This document shows, piece after piece, positions 22,227-29,808 of a stretch of 64,000 nucleotides of DNA. Origin of the DNA: Candidatus Saccharimonadota bacterium. Its GTDB lineage: Bacteria; Patescibacteriota; Saccharimonadia; Saccharimonadales; Saccharimonadaceae. Each line of letters begins with the position of its first letter. Position 1 is the stretch's first letter. The notes under the pieces are model-generated. The model was not told the origin of the DNA, did not search any database, and saw only the letters and a program-made list of their open reading frames with translations. The translations under genes and the position numbers were made by a program. The stretch lies in assembly GCA_017962365.1 (NCBI GenBank), contig JAGCVL010000002.1, positions 1-64,000 on the forward strand, in the 5' to 3' direction.

Positions 22227-22778
22227 CTATTCTTGGCTCAATATTTTGCCAGTGCCGAGCTCTAGATGTAATAGTCGCTGGTTTTTAGAGCCGCGATAGC
22301 GCAAGCTTAAATCTTTCTGCGACAAGATGAAGGGACCATCAATCAATGCGTCGAGCGATTTTAGAAATTCCCACGCATCACCACCAGCCGCTTTAATCTG
22401 TTCATAAGTAAAGCCAGAAAAGCTCCAAACATTCCAACCGAGATTTTTTCTGACCCAGTCCGCAATCTCTTTGCAGGCTTTTGGCTGTACAAATGGCTCA
22501 CCACCGCAAAAGGTCACGCCGTTCTGCCCAGGGAATTTTGCTAGTCGTTCGCAGATTTCTTTCGTCGTCACCTCAAATCCACCATTAAAATCCCAAGTTT
22601 CTGGATTCTGACAGCCTTTGCAATGATTTGGGCAGCCTTGTGTCCACACCACTGCGCGAAGACCATCGCCATTGACGATATTGTCCCGCTCTAGCGGCCC
22701 GGAGAGGCGAATATACCCCTCCGTTGGCTGTGGAGCCGTCTGAATGTTCTTGATGACGATTTTATCCCAATCGCTCAT
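22227..22778 (-). CDS. nrdG: Anaerobic ribonucleotide reductase activating enzyme
   Basis: A radical SAM activase that installs the glycyl radical on NrdD. The 183-residue protein has the cluster motif CPNHCKGCQNPETW (near residues 49-62) and the FCGGEPF loop, matching NrdG length. Its ATG overlaps the last base of the nrdD stop (TAATG), so translation is coupled. Without oxygen it would allow class III deoxyribonucleotide synthesis. Confidence 0.93.
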   Translation of the reverse strand: MSDWDKIVIKNIQTAPQPTEGYIRLSGPLERDNIVNGDGLRAVVWTQGCPNHCKGCQNPETWDFNGGFEVTTKEICERLAKFPGQNGVTFCGGEPFVQPKACKEIADWVRKNLGWNVWSFSGFTYEQIKAAGGDAWEFLKSLDALIDGPFILSQKDLSLRYRGSKNQRLLHLELGTGKILSQE

Positions 22779-24973
22779 TATTTGCCTTTTGTGCAGTTAC
22801 AGATTTTTTCAAATGGCACATCGCCCTCAAGTCGACCGCAGTGTGGACAGCGATTGCCGGTAATGATACCAGAGAATCCACACACTGGATCACGATCTAC
22901 TGGGTGGTTGACTGAGCCGTAACCAATCCCAGCGTCATGCATTTTACGAATCACTGCTTCAAATGCTGCTATATTTTGCGATGGGTCGCCGTCGAGCTCG
23001 ATATAGGTAATATGTCCAGCATTACACAGGTTATGATATGGCGCCTCAATATCAATTTTTTCAAAGGCCGAAATTGGATAATATACTGGTACATGGAATG
23101 AGTTAGTGTAGAATTCACGGTCAGTTACGCCAGGAATTTCGCCATATTCTTTGCGGTCAATCTTGGTAAAGCGTCCAGCGATGCCCTCAGCCGGCGTTGC
23201 TAGTAATGAGAAGTTGAGCTTATATTTCTTACAATATTGGTCACATTTCTCACGCATGTGGGTGACAATATCAAGACCAAGGTCACGTGCATCCTCATCT
23301 TCACCATGATGTTTACCAGTCATGGCTACCAAAGTCTCAGCTAGACCGATAAACCCAATCGAGAGCGTCCCGTGTTTGATTACGTCGCGCAAAGTATCAT
23401 TTGGCCCTAACTTTTCGGAACCAAACCAGTTGCCTTGCCCCATTAGGAATGGGAAGTTGCGCACATGCTGATTAGCCTGAAATTCAAATCTCTCAAGAAG
23501 CTCATCTTTCACAAGGTCCATCTTCTCATCGAGCTCTTTATAGAACCCTTCCCAGTCGGCTTCTTTACGCTCGCCAAGGCAGATACCATGTTTGATGCCA
23601 ATCCGCACTAGATTTACCGTCGTAAATGAAAGATTACCGCGTCCGGTCACGATGCCGTCAGATTCTGGGAACACTGACGCAAACACCCGTGTCCTACAGC
23701 CCATCGTCGCAATCTCGGTCCTGTAGTCACCCTTCTTATAATACTTCAAGTTATATGGTGCATCGACAAAACAGAAATTTGGGAATAGCCTCTTTGCTGA
23801 TACTTCCATCGACTTCTTAAATAGGTCATAGTTTGGATCATCCGGCTCATAGTTTACCCCAGATTTTACCTTAAAAATCGAAATTGGGAAAATTGGTGTC
23901 TCACCCTTGCCAAGGCCATTTTCGGTCGCTTGAAGCAAATCCATCGACACTAGTCGCCCAGCTGGAGAGGTATCGGTACCAAAGTTAATCGAAGTAAACG
24001 GCACCTGTGCACCGGCACGCGAATGCATGGTGTTGAGGTTATGCACGAAGCCTTCCATTGCTTGCATAGTCTCGCGTTCGACATCTTCATTTGACGCCTC
24101 TACGATTGCTTTTGGCCACTTTGCCTTCTCGAGCTTTTTGTCGTCACCATATTCGTAATCATCTTTGACTTCAAGGTCGAGCTTCTTGCCAGAGAATTTA
24201 TTGTATTTTGCAAGATTCCGCTTTAAGGCCTTGCGGAATGATTTATTTACGCCAGGAGCCATCGCATAGTCAAAGTTTGGGATTGACTGCCCGCCATGTT
24301 GCTCATTTTGGTTTGCCTGCAAAAGGATTGCCGCGAGTGCACCGTAAGAGCCAATCGAATTTGGCGTGCGAAGGTGTCCGTGTCCAGTATTAAAACCACC
24401 ATTTTCAAATAGCACAAATGGGTCAGACTGGCAGCAGGTCAAAGTCCCAGTCGCGTAAAAATCAAGGTCGTGGATGTGAATGTCGCCATTGTCATGCGCA
24501 GCTGCGATATCCGGGCGAAGCAGCAAAGTCTTTGCAAACACCTTTGCGCCCTCCGCGCCAAATTGCAACATCTTACCCATTGCTGAGTTGCCATCGACAT
24601 TTGCATTGGAACGCTTGATATCCGAATCTTCGCTCGCATCTGCATGCGAAATCGTCTTGTAGGCATTCATGAGGTCAGACTTTGCCTCACGCCGCCTGGA
24701 TCGCTCTTGTCGGTACTGGATGTACTCCTTGGCGGTCTTTTTGAAACTCGACTCCATCAATACATCCTCTACGATATCCTGAATCTGCTCTACATGCAGC
24801 GTCCGCTCTTTGATGGTCTCCTCTGCGCGCTTGATAGCTTTTTCGGCCAAAGTTTTTGCCCGGTCATATTTGAATTCTTCAGTCACTAGCCCAGCTTTTG
24901 CGATTGCATTCGTAATCTTCTCTGGGTCAAATTTTACAATCTTCCCATCCCTCTTGATAATTCGCTTGAACAT
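22778..24973 (-). CDS. nrdD: Anaerobic (class III) ribonucleoside-triphosphate reductase, unusual C-terminus
   Basis: A 731-residue protein: N-terminal ATP-cone (about 1-95, KRDGKIVKFDPEKI), then the catalytic barrel with TLTCCQSDPF (Cys near 178) and the thiyl site MGCRTRVF (near 425), and late NHPVDRDPVCGFSG and CPHCGR zinc-type motifs. The expected glycyl-radical loop (RRxTGYL-like, about 15 residues beyond the CPxCG pair) is absent; the protein ends FEKICNCTKGK. No frameshift explains this because nrdG begins at the stop. AGGAGG precedes the ATG, after a leader of about 145 bases. Confidence 0.9.
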   Translation of the reverse strand: MFKRIIKRDGKIVKFDPEKITNAIAKAGLVTEEFKYDRAKTLAEKAIKRAEETIKERTLHVEQIQDIVEDVLMESSFKKTAKEYIQYRQERSRRREAKSDLMNAYKTISHADASEDSDIKRSNANVDGNSAMGKMLQFGAEGAKVFAKTLLLRPDIAAAHDNGDIHIHDLDFYATGTLTCCQSDPFVLFENGGFNTGHGHLRTPNSIGSYGALAAILLQANQNEQHGGQSIPNFDYAMAPGVNKSFRKALKRNLAKYNKFSGKKLDLEVKDDYEYGDDKKLEKAKWPKAIVEASNEDVERETMQAMEGFVHNLNTMHSRAGAQVPFTSINFGTDTSPAGRLVSMDLLQATENGLGKGETPIFPISIFKVKSGVNYEPDDPNYDLFKKSMEVSAKRLFPNFCFVDAPYNLKYYKKGDYRTEIATMGCRTRVFASVFPESDGIVTGRGNLSFTTVNLVRIGIKHGICLGERKEADWEGFYKELDEKMDLVKDELLERFEFQANQHVRNFPFLMGQGNWFGSEKLGPNDTLRDVIKHGTLSIGFIGLAETLVAMTGKHHGEDEDARDLGLDIVTHMREKCDQYCKKYKLNFSLLATPAEGIAGRFTKIDRKEYGEIPGVTDREFYTNSFHVPVYYPISAFEKIDIEAPYHNLCNAGHITYIELDGDPSQNIAAFEAVIRKMHDAGIGYGSVNHPVDRDPVCGFSGIITGNRCPHCGRLEGDVPFEKICNCTKGK

Positions 24974-25154: not shown

Positions 25155-25189
25155 GACTTTTATGTTAAAAATGTCAAAATTACAACAAA

Positions 25190-25231
25190 GACGATTTTAT
25201 AGGGATGACAAAGTGTCTAACAGATTAGACA
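25190..25231. repeat. Intergenic repeat, copy A (partial)
   Basis: GACGATTTTATAGGG (25190-25204) is identical to 27763-27777 in copy C. It is followed by a perfect TGTCTAA-CAGA-TTAGACA palindrome containing the CTAACAG motif shared by other copies. It sits at the left side of the accessory region. Confidence 0.55.
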
Positions 25232-25233
25232 TA

Positions 25234-25262
25234 TTGACAAAAATAACCATGTGTGGTATAAT
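25234..25262 (+). promoter_or_regulatory. Consensus sigma70 promoter of the 261-aa gene
   Basis: TTGACA at 25234-25239, exactly 17 bases, TATAAT at 25257-25262. Confidence 0.85.
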
Positions 25263-25273
25263 TAAAGTAAGCA

Positions 25274-25302
25274 GTTACTATTAATAAGTAACCGAGTTTT
25301 TT
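25274..25302 (+). promoter_or_regulatory. Terminator-like leader hairpin
   Basis: GTTACT / AGTAAC stem (25274-25279, 25287-25292) followed four bases later by six T. It lies between promoter and ribosome-binding site, where a possible attenuator would be. Confidence 0.45.
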
Positions 25303-25335
25303 AACAGTATTAACAAATACGAAGGGGGATTTACT

Positions 25336-26121
25336 ATGTCGGAAACGAAATACTTCTGTAGGAGAATATCCGAGTTTGATATATCCGAACTCGGACTGAG
25401 CGAAAAGGACCTCAAATACGCTAAGGCGGCGTTCAAGCGCCAGTCGTATTTGGTTGTCGCAGCAAGGAAACGTGAGGAGGAATTTTTAATGAACTATCTC
25501 TTCACGGCGCTAAGGCGCGAAGATAGAGAAAAAGGCATTTGTGTTAAGCGCAAGGACGACTATTGGGAAAAGGCATACGAAATATCTAAGCGCATTTACA
25601 AGAAAATAGATGAGGCTGGATACATCAGGCACGACTGTTCTTGGGACCATAAAAACCTGAGACTGCTTTTCATCATTGTGGATAAAATTCTCAGATCTGA
25701 CCAGCAATGCATTGACGACGCCAAATCCCACAGGTTTTCCCGTTATGACGGCGGTCGTATGACGCGAAGAGCCGATGAGTGGCTGGATGGTATTGATGAT
25801 CTTAAAAAGGCACTCCGCTGCATCAACTACGTATATTTCGAAGAGATTGATGGGTTCAGTGAATGCGAAACGGAAAAATACGAAACATATGACTTTGAGA
25901 AGCTAGACCATGCCGTCGCCGACGTGATGCACAATATCTTTACTCCCAAACAGATGGAGATGATGGAATGGATCGGAGATTATCGACAACCCTGCGGTAA
26001 TGATGTTTCATCTTGCGTTAGAGTCTACACAGAAGAAGAGCGGACGCTGTATAGCGCCGCCATGTGTAGCGTCTTGACGAACGCATGCTACATCAAAGAA
26101 GTACTCGAACGGTATTTGTAA
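25336..26121 (+). CDS. Hypothetical 261-aa protein of the accessory region
   Basis: No family recognised. The protein is soluble, charged and largely helical by composition, with many Glu/Lys/Arg, seven or more scattered Cys and Trp-containing acidic stretches (DEWLDGIDDLKK). No membrane segment, signal peptide or catalytic motif stands out. GGGGG lies before the ATG with good spacing. It has a consensus promoter, a leader hairpin and a strong terminator, and stands alone between repeat copies A and B. The single-gene unit and lack of recognisable homology suggest recent acquisition, perhaps a defence or regulatory protein; this is speculation. Confidence 0.75.
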   Translation: MSETKYFCRRISEFDISELGLSEKDLKYAKAAFKRQSYLVVAARKREEEFLMNYLFTALRREDREKGICVKRKDDYWEKAYEISKRIYKKIDEAGYIRHDCSWDHKNLRLLFIIVDKILRSDQQCIDDAKSHRFSRYDGGRMTRRADEWLDGIDDLKKALRCINYVYFEEIDGFSECETEKYETYDFEKLDHAVADVMHNIFTPKQMEMMEWIGDYRQPCGNDVSSCVRVYTEEERTLYSAAMCSVLTNACYIKEVLERYL

Positions 26122-26130
26122 TACTAGAAA

Positions 26131-26152
26131 AGGCGCCACCAGGCGCCTTTTT
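26131..26152 (+). terminator. Intrinsic terminator after the 261-aa gene
   Basis: AGGCGCC-ACCA-GGCGCCT hairpin followed by TTTT. Confidence 0.85.
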
Positions 26153-26250
26153 CAATTGTCTTTTAATATCGTAATACTCGGAAATCCGCAGTAGAACTTG
26201 TATTTTGACTTTAGGCTTTCAAATTCTGCCAACCAATCCATAAAATATGC

Positions 26251-26307
26251 TATAGTAAGCATATGAAGAAATCATTATTTAAGAAAATTTATTCTCCGAT
26301 ATTGTAG
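26251..26307 (+). pseudogene. Truncated gene start with a leaderless-type promoter
   Basis: TGCTATAGT (-10 at 26251-26256), then exactly six bases, then an ATG at 26263 opening a 14-codon frame (MKKSLFKKIYSPIL) that stops at 26305-26307. The spacing matches the leaderless genes elsewhere in the window, so this is probably the surviving 5' end of a lost gene, although a tiny functional peptide is possible. Confidence 0.4.
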
Positions 26308-26327
26308 CTACCATCAGAAAAATGACG

Positions 26328-26455
26328 GCTACAAAATGGACCAAAATATAATACTATTACTGCGAGGCACTTAACAGAAATCTACTACTAAAAAATCGGC
26401 CAAAATGCCGAACTGCATAAAGTTTGATGGGAGCGAATTGTTCAGGCATTAGTGC
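26328..26455. repeat. Intergenic repeat, copy B
   Basis: Aligns with copy C: an ACAAAATGGACCAAAATA block, CACTTAACAGA (around 26369), CTAAAAAATCGGC with the hairpin CGGC-CAAAAT-GCCG (26397-26410), and a final GATGGGAGC..TTCAGGC block. It lies between the 261-aa gene and the radical SAM gene. Confidence 0.65.
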
Positions 26456-26466
26456 TGGGCGATAAC

Positions 26467-26494
26467 TTGAAAAAGTAGTAATTTATGATATAAT
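26467..26494 (+). promoter_or_regulatory. Promoter of the radical SAM gene
   Basis: TTGAAA at 26467-26472, 16-base spacer, TGATATAAT with -10 at 26489-26494. The leader to the ATG at 26546 is about 45 bases and contains GAGGAGG. Confidence 0.6.
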
Positions 26495-26545
26495 TTTGAA
26501 AGAGGAGGATGCTTTTCAAATAGTACTTTAGAAAGAAGGTGGACT

Positions 26546-27607
26546 ATGATTTATTATGATCCTTGGCGCTCTGAGAGATTTGATGTCATGATGCGTTACG
26601 CTCGTACGGACCTGCTGTCATTGGATGTGCAGCTGGGCTCCACTTGTAATGGTAGATGCCCACGCTGCGACAGCTCATGCTCTGGGAGAAATGAACCTGC
26701 CGCTTTAGATATCAATGCCGCTTCGGCACTCGCCGCCAAAATCAATCAACGCCGTATGTCTTTAGGTATAGCTGACAATAATATGGGGTTCTGTTGCGGT
26801 CTTGGTGAACCAACCTTTGGCGCTAACCTGACCATGCTTAAATCCCTAATTACTAGTACCGCCACCCATGACTTTAGTTGGTCTATTTTTAACAATGGCA
26901 TTTACTGGGACAAAGACCTTGACGATTTCCTTAGGCAAGGACGCTTAAATGTATTAGTTCAATACAATAGTGAACGTCCGAAAGTCGTAGCAAAAATGCT
27001 CGGCGTTAATTCGGCACTGGCAGCAAAACACATGGAGAATCGTTGGCATCTTATAGAACTCGCCAACGAACTCAGTCGCAACGGTGCAACTAGCATTGGT
27101 GCTTCAATCGTTCCTGAACGCGATAACTATGATGAAATCTTAGGTATCGTAGAACGTTGTGTTGAGCACAATGTGTTCCCACTAATCGGCGAGTTGGAAA
27201 ATGCTGGGTATTCCAAAAACGAATATTACGAACAGCATAAGATCACTGAGGAAGAGCTAGCAACGTTACGTTGCGCAATCGAACGGCAATTCGGCGTTAA
27301 CTACAAAACACCATTTTGCCCTGCCGCAATCGGAGCAATTCATATCAATAATCGTAATATGGTTACAGTCGATGCTTTCACTGGTCTCTCTTGCGGTTGG
27401 TTCGGTATGGGGGATCCTCAGCCTATAGTCATTGGTGATATTCGCCAAATGACATACGAACAGATTGTTCGCGCCGTTCTAGGCTATCGCGCCGAACATA
27501 TTTCTGAAGTGCGTCGCATAATCAAAGACTACCCCGAAATGATATTTGGTGGTTGTGGCGGCAACGCCCGTGATTTATTGGCTGCCTATCTTGCACTTTA
27601 CGATTAA
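26546..27607 (+). CDS. Radical SAM enzyme with SPASM/Twitch-like C-terminus
   Basis: A 353-residue protein with the CxxxCxxC motif STCNGRCPRCDSSC (Cys near 34, 38 and 41), CCGLGEPT as the GGE-like SAM-binding loop, and C-terminal cysteines in TPFCPAAIGAIH, GLSCGWFG and GGCGGNARDL, as in auxiliary-cluster SPASM or Twitch domains. Such enzymes often modify peptides, but no precursor peptide gene is visible beside it. AAGGTGG precedes the ATG. It has its own promoter and terminator and repeat copies on both sides. Confidence 0.85.
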   Translation: MIYYDPWRSERFDVMMRYARTDLLSLDVQLGSTCNGRCPRCDSSCSGRNEPAALDINAASALAAKINQRRMSLGIADNNMGFCCGLGEPTFGANLTMLKSLITSTATHDFSWSIFNNGIYWDKDLDDFLRQGRLNVLVQYNSERPKVVAKMLGVNSALAAKHMENRWHLIELANELSRNGATSIGASIVPERDNYDEILGIVERCVEHNVFPLIGELENAGYSKNEYYEQHKITEEELATLRCAIERQFGVNYKTPFCPAAIGAIHINNRNMVTVDAFTGLSCGWFGMGDPQPIVIGDIRQMTYEQIVRAVLGYRAEHISEVRRIIKDYPEMIFGGCGGNARDLLAAYLALYD

Positions 27608-27618
27608 TCCTCCTCATA

Positions 27619-27662
27619 AACCCCAGTCTTCACGTGCCCAGCGTGAGCGTGACTGGGGTTTT
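27619..27662 (+). terminator. Intrinsic terminator after the radical SAM gene
   Basis: AACCCCAGTC / GACTGGGGTT stem with an inner CACG/CGTG pair, followed by TT; long and G+C-rich. Confidence 0.8.
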
Positions 27663-27744
27663 CTTAAATACCGCAGTATGTTAACTATTAATTATGATGT
27701 ACGCAAAAACACGATTACAGATTTAACAGAAAAATAAAATCTGA

Positions 27745-27945
27745 ACGTTTAGGGTATTAACAGACGATTTTATAGGGGGTAAAAATGTGCCTTCTGGTCC
27801 ATTTTTTATGCAAAATTGGCATAAAATAACATACTAGAACTTACAGGGTATTTAACAGAGATTTACCACTAAAAAAATCGGCGAAAATGCCGACTTATAT
27901 ATAATCTGGTGGGGCAAAATTATCCAGGCTTTAACATTTTTCAGG
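27745..27945. repeat. Intergenic repeat, copy C (longest)
   Basis: In order: GGGTATTAACAG, GACGATTTTATAGGG (27763-27777), TATAGGGGGTAAA shared with D, GCAAAATTGGCATAAAATA shared with D and B, GGGTATTTAACAGAG, CACTAAAAAAATCGGC with the TCGGC-GAAAAT-GCCGA hairpin (27877-27893), CTGGTGGGGC and CCAGGC. It serves as the reference copy for aligning A, B and D. Confidence 0.65.
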
Positions 27946-27982
27946 AAATATCTATGGCTATTAGCATCGTATCCATTCTTGG

Positions 27983-28011
27983 TTGCAAATTTATAAAAAT
28001 GATGTTATAAT
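27983..28011 (+). promoter_or_regulatory. Promoter of the cupin gene
   Basis: TTGCAA at 27983-27988, exactly 17 bases, TATAAT at 28006-28011, followed by AAGGAGGTGAT. Confidence 0.75.
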
Positions 28012-28033
28012 TCTCGTGAAGGAGGTGATCGTA

Positions 28034-28402
28034 ATGGGATTAATTAAACCATCAAAGACTCTTATGGAAACATGGGGCTGGGACCCCGTTGGGTCTGAAT
28101 GGACCGACGATCAAGACGTGAGTTGTACCAATAACCAGTTCCGCGACAAGGATAAGTCTATGTGTTTTGCCAGCATTAAGCGTGGTAAGCATCATGGTTG
28201 GACAACAGCCGCTAGTGATTATTTCTATTACATAATTGGCGGTACGGGCGAACTTGAAATTGAAGGTGAGAGCAGCCCAATCCATATCAGACAGGGAGAT
28301 TCATTCTGCGTTGAAAAAGGTACCAGATATAACTACTGGGCAGATGACGGTAATGACTTGAACTTTGTCTTATTCATGAGCAAGCTGTGGAACGAAGAGT
28401 AA
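28034..28402 (+). CDS. Small cupin-domain protein
   Basis: A 122-residue single-domain cupin: YYIIGGTGELEIEGE and IRQGDSFCVEKGTRYNYWAD correspond to the two cupin motifs. The metal-binding His residues are only partly recognisable (HH near residues 54-55), so it may bind a ligand rather than catalyse. The ATG at 28034 is chosen because the near-perfect ribosome-binding site AAGGAGGTGAT lies before it and the promoter makes earlier starts impossible. It is monocistronic with its own terminator, flanked by repeats C and D. Sugar- or small-molecule sensing is possible but unproven. Confidence 0.8.
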   Translation: MGLIKPSKTLMETWGWDPVGSEWTDDQDVSCTNNQFRDKDKSMCFASIKRGKHHGWTTAASDYFYYIIGGTGELEIEGESSPIHIRQGDSFCVEKGTRYNYWADDGNDLNFVLFMSKLWNEE

Positions 28403-28413
28403 TGTACGGCCGT

Positions 28414-28443
28414 GGCCCCGTCCATAATCGGGGCCTTTTTTTT
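28414..28443 (+). terminator. Strong intrinsic terminator after the cupin gene
   Basis: GGCCCCG / CGGGGCC stem followed by eight or more T. Confidence 0.9.
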
Positions 28444-28509
28444 GTAATAAAAACCAGCAGGCAGGGACATTTATTATATTTATCCATCACTGGCAATAGT
28501 ATATGTTGA

Positions 28510-28670
28510 GAACATTGGGGGATTTATCGGCCGAGAATATAGGGGGTAAATTACGGTTTATGACATATTCTTGTCGCAAAAATGGCATAAAAATAGCCCT
28601 CTATTTTTACAAGGGATTTAACAGACATTCATAGATTACGAAATAGTTGAAAATTATTTTGTAAACCGTT
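28510..28670. repeat. Intergenic repeat, copy D, abutting tRNA-Val
   Basis: Shares TATAGGGGGTAAA (28538-28550), GCAAAAATGGCATAAAA and GGGATTTAACAGA with copy C in the same order. It ends at the 3' end of tRNA-Val, where GTTTGGTGG aligns with CTGGTGGGG of copy C. Confidence 0.6.
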
Positions 28671-28747
28671 TGGTGGATCTTACTGGGCTCGAACCAGTGA
28701 CCTTACGAATGTGAATCGTACGCTCTAGCCAACTGAGCTAAAGATCC
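28671..28747 (-). tRNA. tRNA-Val (CAC)
   Basis: Acceptor GGATCTT/AAGATCC, anticodon stem TACGA/TCGTA with loop TTCACAT (anticodon CAC), T-arm GGTTCGAGC, discriminator A, encoded CCA at 28671-28673. Its 3' end borders the repeat-rich accessory region. Confidence 0.93.
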
Positions 28748-28756
28748 ATAAAATAT

Positions 28757-28764
28757 GCTATAAT
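28757..28764 (+). promoter_or_regulatory. Extended -10 of prfA (leaderless type)
   Basis: TGCTATAAT ends at 28764, six bases before the ATG at 28771. No -35 and no Shine-Dalgarno sequence are visible. Confidence 0.65.
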
Positions 28765-28770
28765 TATATC

Positions 28771-29808
28771 ATGGATATTGAAAAAATAAAAGCAGAACTT
28801 AATGAGCTCGAGGCCTTTCTTGCCACGCCAGATGCTTACAGTAACCCAGACTTCGCCGCAAAGGCCAAGCGCGCCTCGACCTTAAGAGAAATTGTCGAAC
28901 TCACCACTAAAATTACCACCGAGGAATCCAACCTAAAAGAAGCCGAATCTTTGGTTAGTGACCCAGACCTTGGCGAAATCGCTCGCGAGGACGTCGCAAG
29001 ACTAAAAGCCGAAATTCCAGAGCTAAAAGCTAAATTAGAAGAGCTTTTAATTCCCCGCGACCCCGCCGACGATAAGCCTGCCATCTTTGAAATCCGCGCT
29101 GGAGCCGGTGGCGACGAGGCCAGCCTTTTTGCTGGCGAACTCTATCGCATGTATCAAAAATACGCCGAATCCCACGGTCTAAAGTCGGAGCTCATGAGCC
29201 AAAACGAAAACGAAGCCGGCGGCATGAAGGAAGTCATTTTCAAAATCTCTGGCGACAACGCCTATGGACAGCTCAAATTCGAAGGTGGCGTCCATCGCGT
29301 GCAGCGCATTCCGGTCACTGAGTCTCAGGGGCGTATTCACACCTCCACCGCCACAGTTGCCGTCCTGCCAGAAGCCGCCGAAGAAGACCTCGAAATCAGC
29401 CCCGAAGACCTCCGCATTGATATTTACCGTTCCGGCGGCCATGGTGGTCAGGGCGTCAACACTACTGACTCCGCCGTCCGCATCACCCATCTCCCGACCG
29501 GCCTCGTCGTCGCTATGCAGGACGAACGCTCTCAGCAGCAAAACCGCATTAAGGCCATGAACATTCTCCGTTCCCGCCTATTAGAGCGCAAAAAAGAAGA
29601 AGAAATGAAGAATGCATCAGAGGCTCGCAAGTCCCTCATTGGTACCGGCGACCGCTCCGAAAAAATCCGCACCTACAACTTCCCTCAAGACCGCGTCACC
29701 GACCACCGCATCCACTACTCCCGCAGCAACATCCCGGCGGTCATGAACGGCGACATCGACGACATCATTCACGAGTTAATCAAACATGAACGCAGCCTCG
29801 GAGAGTAG
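28771..29808 (+). CDS. prfA: Peptide chain release factor 1
   Basis: RF1 ends translation at UAA and UAG. The 345-residue protein has the GGQ loop [17 protein letters not shown] (near 224) and the RF1-type [23 protein letters not shown] region, plus [14 protein letters not shown] at the C-terminal part. It is followed by prmC, which would methylate the GGQ glutamine. The mRNA is predicted to be leaderless. Confidence 0.95.

Follow-up and report, generated by a model that had tools for sequence, protein, structure and literature searches.

A window of 64,000 nucleotides from Candidatus Saccharimonadota (positions 1 to 64,000 of contig JAGCVL010000002.1, assembly GCA_017962365.1) was analyzed for a locus in which three lone genes, separated by copies of one repeat, lie between nrdD and a tRNA-Val gene adjoining prfA. 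Most probably (roughly 80%), the locus consists of non-autonomous cassettes, mostly with a single gene each, which a Ccr-like serine recombinase supplied in trans has inserted in tandem at tRNA 3' ends. Sequence comparison shows the geometry of such insertion, exchange of cassettes from core to core, empty and differently filled sites, an origin of the attachment sites (att) in a recombinase gene, and a large serine recombinase (LSR) at this same site in a relative.

We compared 42 array regions, comprising 40 that were fetched, the window and a second array on contig C2 of the window's genome, which holds three repeat copies and three lone genes, the last copy abutting the 3' end of a tRNA-Leu. 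The att copies in these regions are of three kinds (46 full, 40 left-half and 16 right-half) and their positions follow the kind, with right-half copies (core plus right half) at the outer end, full copies between genes and left-half copies at the tRNA. Twenty-seven of the 40 left-half copies end no more than 2 nt from the 3' end of an opposite-strand tRNA (Val, Phe, Ile, Met or Leu), and several of the others lie near tRNA fragments. As read from the copies, this distribution is the attL, internal and attR pattern of tandem site-specific insertion. The units between att hits have a median length of 903 bp and mostly carry one open reading frame (ORF; one in 46 of 59 units, two in 9, none in 4), with 50 of 64 ORFs directed along the att. 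The conserved left half spans about 160 bp with a sharp start at GGGTATTAACAG and comes in two classes, alpha with 50 copies and beta with 30; halves of the two classes meet exactly at the core. A related set of att has the core TGGCTGGGG, which is the end of tRNA-Gln. This sister family, with the right half WLGQIKQALTIYKEDIRNKL, was observed in L161-L170, L172, L176 and L178, where some copies lie near tRNA-Gln and others open larger units, e.g. with TetR-like or transporter genes.

Within the window, copies B and C share 72% identity over 121 nt (E = 3.6e-15) and copies C and D 66% over 147 nt (E = 9.9e-12). The earlier note on this DNA had placed a copy of the repeat in every gap, A to D, which stands for B, C and D but not for A, where just a 16-bp exact match to C was found (25189-25204, E = 0.12); its further statements that the copies share one orientation and that D abuts the 3' end of tRNA-Val at 28671 are both exact. 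Copy A coincides with the left insertion junction at about 25191, the point at which flank homology stops in the alignment to att-free relatives, and since the right-half profile has no match at this position, the left end of the first cassette is judged to be decayed. The full-length att C reads GGGTATTAACAG in its outer, GGTATTTAACAG in its inner and CAGGCTTTAACA in its right segment, and is 83% identical to a copy on contig C2 (E = 2.3e-50). The profile match of att D, itself a training copy, covers 28601-28688 and only model positions 3-90 (E = 5.3e-19). Rfam matched the tRNA alone in this region and no repeat family; inverted repeats of 20 nt or more are absent from the region, a short alpha-class hairpin is present, and short motif searches in the window gave totals not above chance.

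A sequence-only profile was built from the six copies of the window's genome (three in the window and three on C2) and, as the earlier note had proposed, searched in related genomes. It found no further copies in the genome of origin at E<0.1. In a genus sample of 147 genomes, 114 gave matches at E<=0.05 and 92 at E<=1e-5 (a hand count from the table), the best at 3e-24, and the matches often cluster on the same strand about 1 kb apart. The repeats thus do not behave like shuffled sequence, an outcome that the note had named as a possible refutation; their alignments are far above chance. Outside the genus, the only convincing matches came from one genome, with 15 copies, in a sister genus within the family. 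Exact matches to the right half, sought in one genome per species of GTDB r220, comprise 13 loci, all from Candidatus Saccharibacteria, and the records of most of these name sheep, goat, cattle or yak gut. In IMG/VR, phages and plasmids, the patterns and queries applied, which could pick up only exact or close matches, returned no copies. Many contigs (L071, L072, L077, L086, L088 and others) end in arrays or just past them, so the arrays probably break assemblies and are undercounted.

Several cassettes occur at different tRNAs in different genomes. One is found at tRNA-Leu in the window's genome and at tRNA-Val in G124 (92.5% identity over 704 nt), another at tRNA-Val in G088, tRNA-Phe in G005 and tRNA-Met in G170 (93-94% over about 710 nt). 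Homology between shared cassettes starts and stops inside TGGTGG, and the sequence outside is unrelated or native; arrays at unrelated tRNAs have no common flanks. When the units alone are compared, several pairs are 93-97% identical, while prfA of the hosts compared is only 75-80% identical, which implies that movement was recent somewhere.

The nrdD-tRNA-Val-prfA synteny is kept in relatives, and the content of the site varies. It is empty in G009 (a 170-bp spacer with no att), and the stretch read in G001, G035, G029, G004, G007 and G070 gave no att hit at this site. G085 and G104 carry other cassettes between nrdD and prfA, other genes lie at tRNA-Val-prfA in G088, G069, G006, G025, G102 and G124, and G148 has an LSR at this same tRNA-Val next to prfA. 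This agrees with the expectation of the earlier note that gene content would vary while the repeats persist; the same three genes in the same order were not a constant of the relatives examined, and the site variation and the repeats together support the note's proposal that units of gene, terminator, repeat and promoter were acquired repeatedly at a single site next to a tRNA end. The note had recognized no mobile-element type in the repeats. Their origin can now be placed in the 3' end of an LSR gene, and the system extends to many tRNAs and most of the genus. Duplicated fragments of the tRNA-Val 3' end, up to about 110 bp from the tRNA and mostly without cassette att, were also seen in L254, L257, L246 and L234 (G070, G007, G029 and G006); they perhaps belong to another type of element at the same site.

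The link between repeat and recombinase came from L081 of G170, an LSR remnant without a catalytic domain that reads ...SALYKI-WWGRIVQALTLYRED... through an internal att. The left half of att C is homologous to the 3' end of this gene (E = 4.7e-13), and the right half reads as protein, WWGRIGQALTIYREDI... By this homology, the left half arose as a copy of the 3' end of a CcrB-like LSR gene and has since decayed, and the right half is the tail of that gene. Column shuffles of 73 non-redundant copies predict 24.7 stops in the tail frame (the minimum in 300 was 17), but only 7 are present, and the BLOSUM score of this frame is clearly above every shuffle, with frame 1 at chance and frame 2 marginally above. 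Judged by these statistics, the right half is still under protein-coding constraint.

LSR genes of the genus commonly run with their 3' ends into tRNA 3' ends, and intact LSRs of the matching family lie at tRNA-Gln (G089; L317:5252-7033) and at tRNA-Val next to prfA (G148; L312:7815-9512). The LSRs of L224/L317, L312 and L211 all have the Resolvase, Recombinase and Zn-ribbon domains; the best NCBIfam match of the intact LSRs is CcrB (E = 4e-30), with 104.8 bits against a cutoff of 900. The helper elements have in common a P-loop protein of about 531 amino acids, the predicted fold of which (mean predicted local distance difference test score, pLDDT, 74) resembles the primase-helicase of Staphylococcus aureus pathogenicity island 5 (SaPI5). 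Many LSR genes of the genus end in tRNA antisense, which gives tails such as RQDSNLR... The window's genome has one LSR, of 581 amino acids (G000:C4:29260-31002; L211:5261-7003), which runs with its 3' end into the 3' end of a tRNA-Leu. A search for a second copy of this 3' end in the same genome gave none that was convincing, and the resident LSR therefore appears to have no cassettes of its own type. No recombinase was found among the cassette genes of the window or of the array on C2. A tyrosine integrase, an SSV-type split integrase and Xer/dif modules had been entertained as well, and were dropped after PF00589 searches and the LSR match.

The following model would account for these observations. 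A cassette, taken from core to core, consists of a right half-site with a promoter, a gene, a terminator, a left half-site (about 160 bp) and the core. The recombinase would most likely be a CcrB-like LSR whose own gene contains the attP in its 3' end, with the 3' end of a tRNA gene (TGGTGG), or TGGCTGGGG of tRNA-Gln in the sister type, as attB. Crossover in the core would place a circular cassette between the flank and the tRNA, leaving the core and right half on the outer side and the left half and core on the tRNA, and each later insertion would leave a full att between cassettes. The cassette sites are copies of the 3' end of the LSR gene, in which the left half has decayed to a pure DNA site, whereas the right half still encodes the tail, by which an LSR with a cassette behind it would be made complete. 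Excision, the circle, action in trans, a route of transfer and the swapping of tails as a switch are parts of the model that we infer. At slightly better than even odds, we would go further and regard the system as a serine-recombinase counterpart of the integron, in which Saccharibacteria across the genus draw on one pool of single-gene cassettes, shuffled in trans from one tRNA 3' end to another, and, the att being the 3' end of the recombinase gene, each event also swaps the C-terminal tail of the recombinase.

Several observations weigh against mobile cassettes of this kind. A circle, excision, recombination or transfer was not seen, and the genomes are drafts. The window's genome lacks an LSR of the matching family, the closest, at tRNA-Leu, being 33% identical, and an LSR at 50% identity or more is present in only about 10 of the 147 genomes. 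Thirteen of the 40 terminal copies do not directly abut a recognized tRNA, ORFs are not always directed along the att (50 of 64), and some units have two genes or none. In the window itself, the left half-site of cassette 1 is unrecognizable and core B is mutated (TGATGG).

Since a related LSR is so rare in the sample, the helper would usually be absent; and as the single LSR of the window's genome is only 33% identical to the matching family and lacks cassettes of its own type, the cassettes of this genome would depend on a helper that is currently not there. It is possible, though rather unlikely, that the arrays are relics, built by an LSR in the past and now immobile in most genomes, including that of the window, a variant that overlaps with the explanation preferred here. 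The absence of a matching LSR from this and most genomes and the decay of core B and of the left end in the window fit such a view, but the right halves remain under coding constraint, intact LSR elements exist, and cassettes of 93-97% identity occur in hosts with far more divergent prfA (75-80%).

Insertion at the 3' end of a tRNA is a typical trait of tyrosine integrases, and almost every genome carries one or more Xer-like genes. A tyrosine recombinase, either host Xer or the integrase of a phage or of an integrative and conjugative element (ICE), might thus be supposed to move the cassettes. We consider this improbable: both halves of the att show homology to the 3' end of an LSR gene, members of that LSR family lie at the same tRNAs, the tRNA-Val of the window locus included, and the window's genome has just one Phage_integrase match, an isolated Xer-like gene well away from the arrays. 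Marginally less probable again is that the repeats are passive and cassettes are exchanged between genomes by DNA uptake and homologous recombination in shared repeats and tRNA flanks. Repeats of 160-200 bp and about 65-90% identity could sustain homologous exchange, which may contribute, but homology of shared cassettes ends within the 6-bp core on both sides, beside unrelated or native flanks, unrelated tRNAs have no common flanks, and the core is the exact point at which halves of the two classes meet.

The features of the locus are listed in Table 1. The earlier note's reading of three lone plus-strand genes between nrdD and tRNA-Val/prfA is confirmed by coordinates, Pfam and ARAGORN. Each has a sigma70-like promoter of its own, as the note had also held, with 12/12 hexamer matches for gene 1, 11/12 for gene 2 (beginning at 26467) and 10/12 for gene 3 (beginning at 27983), and the terminators were likewise recovered, as computed hairpins after genes 1 and 3 and as one visible in the sequence after gene 2. 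A 19-nt exact match links gap B (26236-26254) to the tRNA-Val 5' end/prfA promoter region (28744-28762), and may reflect an extended -10 promoter common to both places or the duplication of a fragment.

Table 1 Features of the cassette locus and its neighbours (window coordinates)
Feature	Position	Strand	Remarks
nrdD	22778..24973	-	Pfam NRDD, E=7e-180; conserved chromosomal left neighbour; adjoins tRNA-Val/prfA in relatives with or without cassettes
Putative cassette 1	25192..26430	+	left end decayed; then promoter, gene of 261 aa, terminator and the att B left half; right end is core B
Sigma70-like promoter, cassette 1	25234..25262	+	TTGACA-17-TATAAT, 12/12 hexamer match
Cassette gene 1	25336..26121	+	261 aa; no family assigned (Pfam, NCBIfam)
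Terminator-like hairpin after gene 1	26127..26152	+	
att B	26343..26460	+	internal, alpha class, partly decayed; core TGATGG 26425-26430; profile E=1.6e-21 (training copy)
Putative cassette 2	26425..27912	+	core to core; boundaries are the cores of att B and att C
Cassette gene 2	26546..27607	+	353 aa, radical-SAM-like
Terminator-like hairpin after gene 2	27621..27665	+	CCCCAGTC...GACTGGGG TTTT; read from the sequence by eye
att C	27747..27940	+	internal, full length, alpha class; core TGGTGG 27907-27912
Putative cassette 3	27907..28676	+	core to core
Cassette gene 3	28034..28402	+	122 aa, cupin-like; Pfam Cupin_2, E=3.5e-6, 27.1 bits vs cutoff 27.2
Terminator-like hairpin after gene 3	28414..28435	+	
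att D	28519..28676	+	left half only, beta class; ends in core TGGTGG 28671-28676, the tRNA-Val 3' end
tRNA-Val(CAC)	28671..28747	-	ARAGORN; its 3' end is the target site
prfA	28771..29808	+	Pfam PCRF/RF-1; conserved right neighbour, syntenic in relatives

The product of gene 2 is plausibly a radical SAM protein, with a CxxxCxxC motif, a Pfam radical SAM match at E = 0.037 and an NCBIfam match to W_rSAM_matur at E = 1.6e-6, far under the family cutoff. A homologue was found in one of 59 relatives searched (G024, 44% identity), and a database search of genome contigs returned no relative of this protein. Among the cassettes, Pfam matches include HD, NUDIX, SDR, DHH, methyltransferase, HAD, GNAT, DUF218, VanY, peptide deformylase, H+-pyrophosphatase, CdiA_C, LysE, ABC exporter and (weakly) ATP-grasp, as well as a nicotinamide mononucleotide (NMN) transporter accompanied by a Ham1-like gene, and many cassettes had no Pfam match at all. 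Ten cassette proteins gave no matches in a defence library. One family of membrane-protein cassettes (MEQN...) was seen in five arrays at different tRNAs (L011:8988-9650, L052, L060, L074 and L088), and the cassette L084:2324-2719 encodes a protein with a CdiA_C-like domain.

Little is known of the routes by which Saccharibacteria, with their very small genomes, gain genes; a cassette system spread through the genus, if true, provides one such route, with a cargo that can be listed. It would also mean that integron-like arrays of single genes have arisen from a serine recombinase, and it makes testable a suggestion made for Dehalococcoides in 2011, that a recombinase is complete only on the circle or by means of the next element's tail. 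Provided that the enzymes are active, their ability to stack cassettes at the ends of tRNA genes would also make such a recombinase useful as a tool.

We found no description of a cassette system of this kind in the open-access literature, and the available part of a report on oral TM7 genomes (PMC7739484), which describes prophages and transposases, makes no mention of such cassettes. The ssrA islands of Dehalococcoides are similar in having a CcrB-like serine recombinase (DsiB), the gene of which always overlaps the att with its 3' end, an RNA gene as target, and a tandem arrangement with some islands free of integration genes; the authors proposed that the recombinase tail could be provided by the circle or by the island that follows (PMC3146451). 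Those are multi-gene islands with the single target ssrA and a 20-bp repeat (PMC3146451), whereas the cassettes of Saccharibacteria are mostly single-gene units of about 1 kb that have an att of 160-200 bp derived from the recombinase gene, target many tRNAs and carry a tail on which coding constraint can be measured. The targets here are tRNAs, neither ssrA (transfer-messenger RNA, tmRNA) nor rlmH. The staphylococcal cassette chromosome (SCC), which forms composite islands in tandem where a conserved gene has its 3' end, shares the Ccr-like recombinase, and the helper elements found here also carry a helicase-like gene; SCC elements, however, target rlmH and measure tens of kb, in contrast to the tRNA target and single-gene cargo seen here, where moreover the CcrB match is below the curated cutoff. 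Cis-mobilizable elements (CIMEs) are flanked by att, lack recombination genes, stand in tandem at one site and are mobilized by accretion with a related element's integrase (PMC7563491). The cassettes are likewise att-flanked, recombinase-free and stacked, but CIMEs are decayed ICEs or integrative and mobilizable elements (IMEs), whereas the cassettes are a uniform, gene-sized family that has two att lineages and is far more numerous than its helpers. Like the cassettes of integrons and of clusters of attC sites lacking integron-integrases (CALINs), they join a single gene to a recombination site and form head-to-tail arrays that often have no resident integrase. They differ from integrons in a serine rather than a tyrosine recombinase, an att derived from the recombinase gene, promoters of their own and anchoring at tRNAs, and the tyrosine integrase IntI was not found in the window's genome. 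Gene-sized cassettes with a recombinase-derived att at many tRNAs appear to be a new variant.

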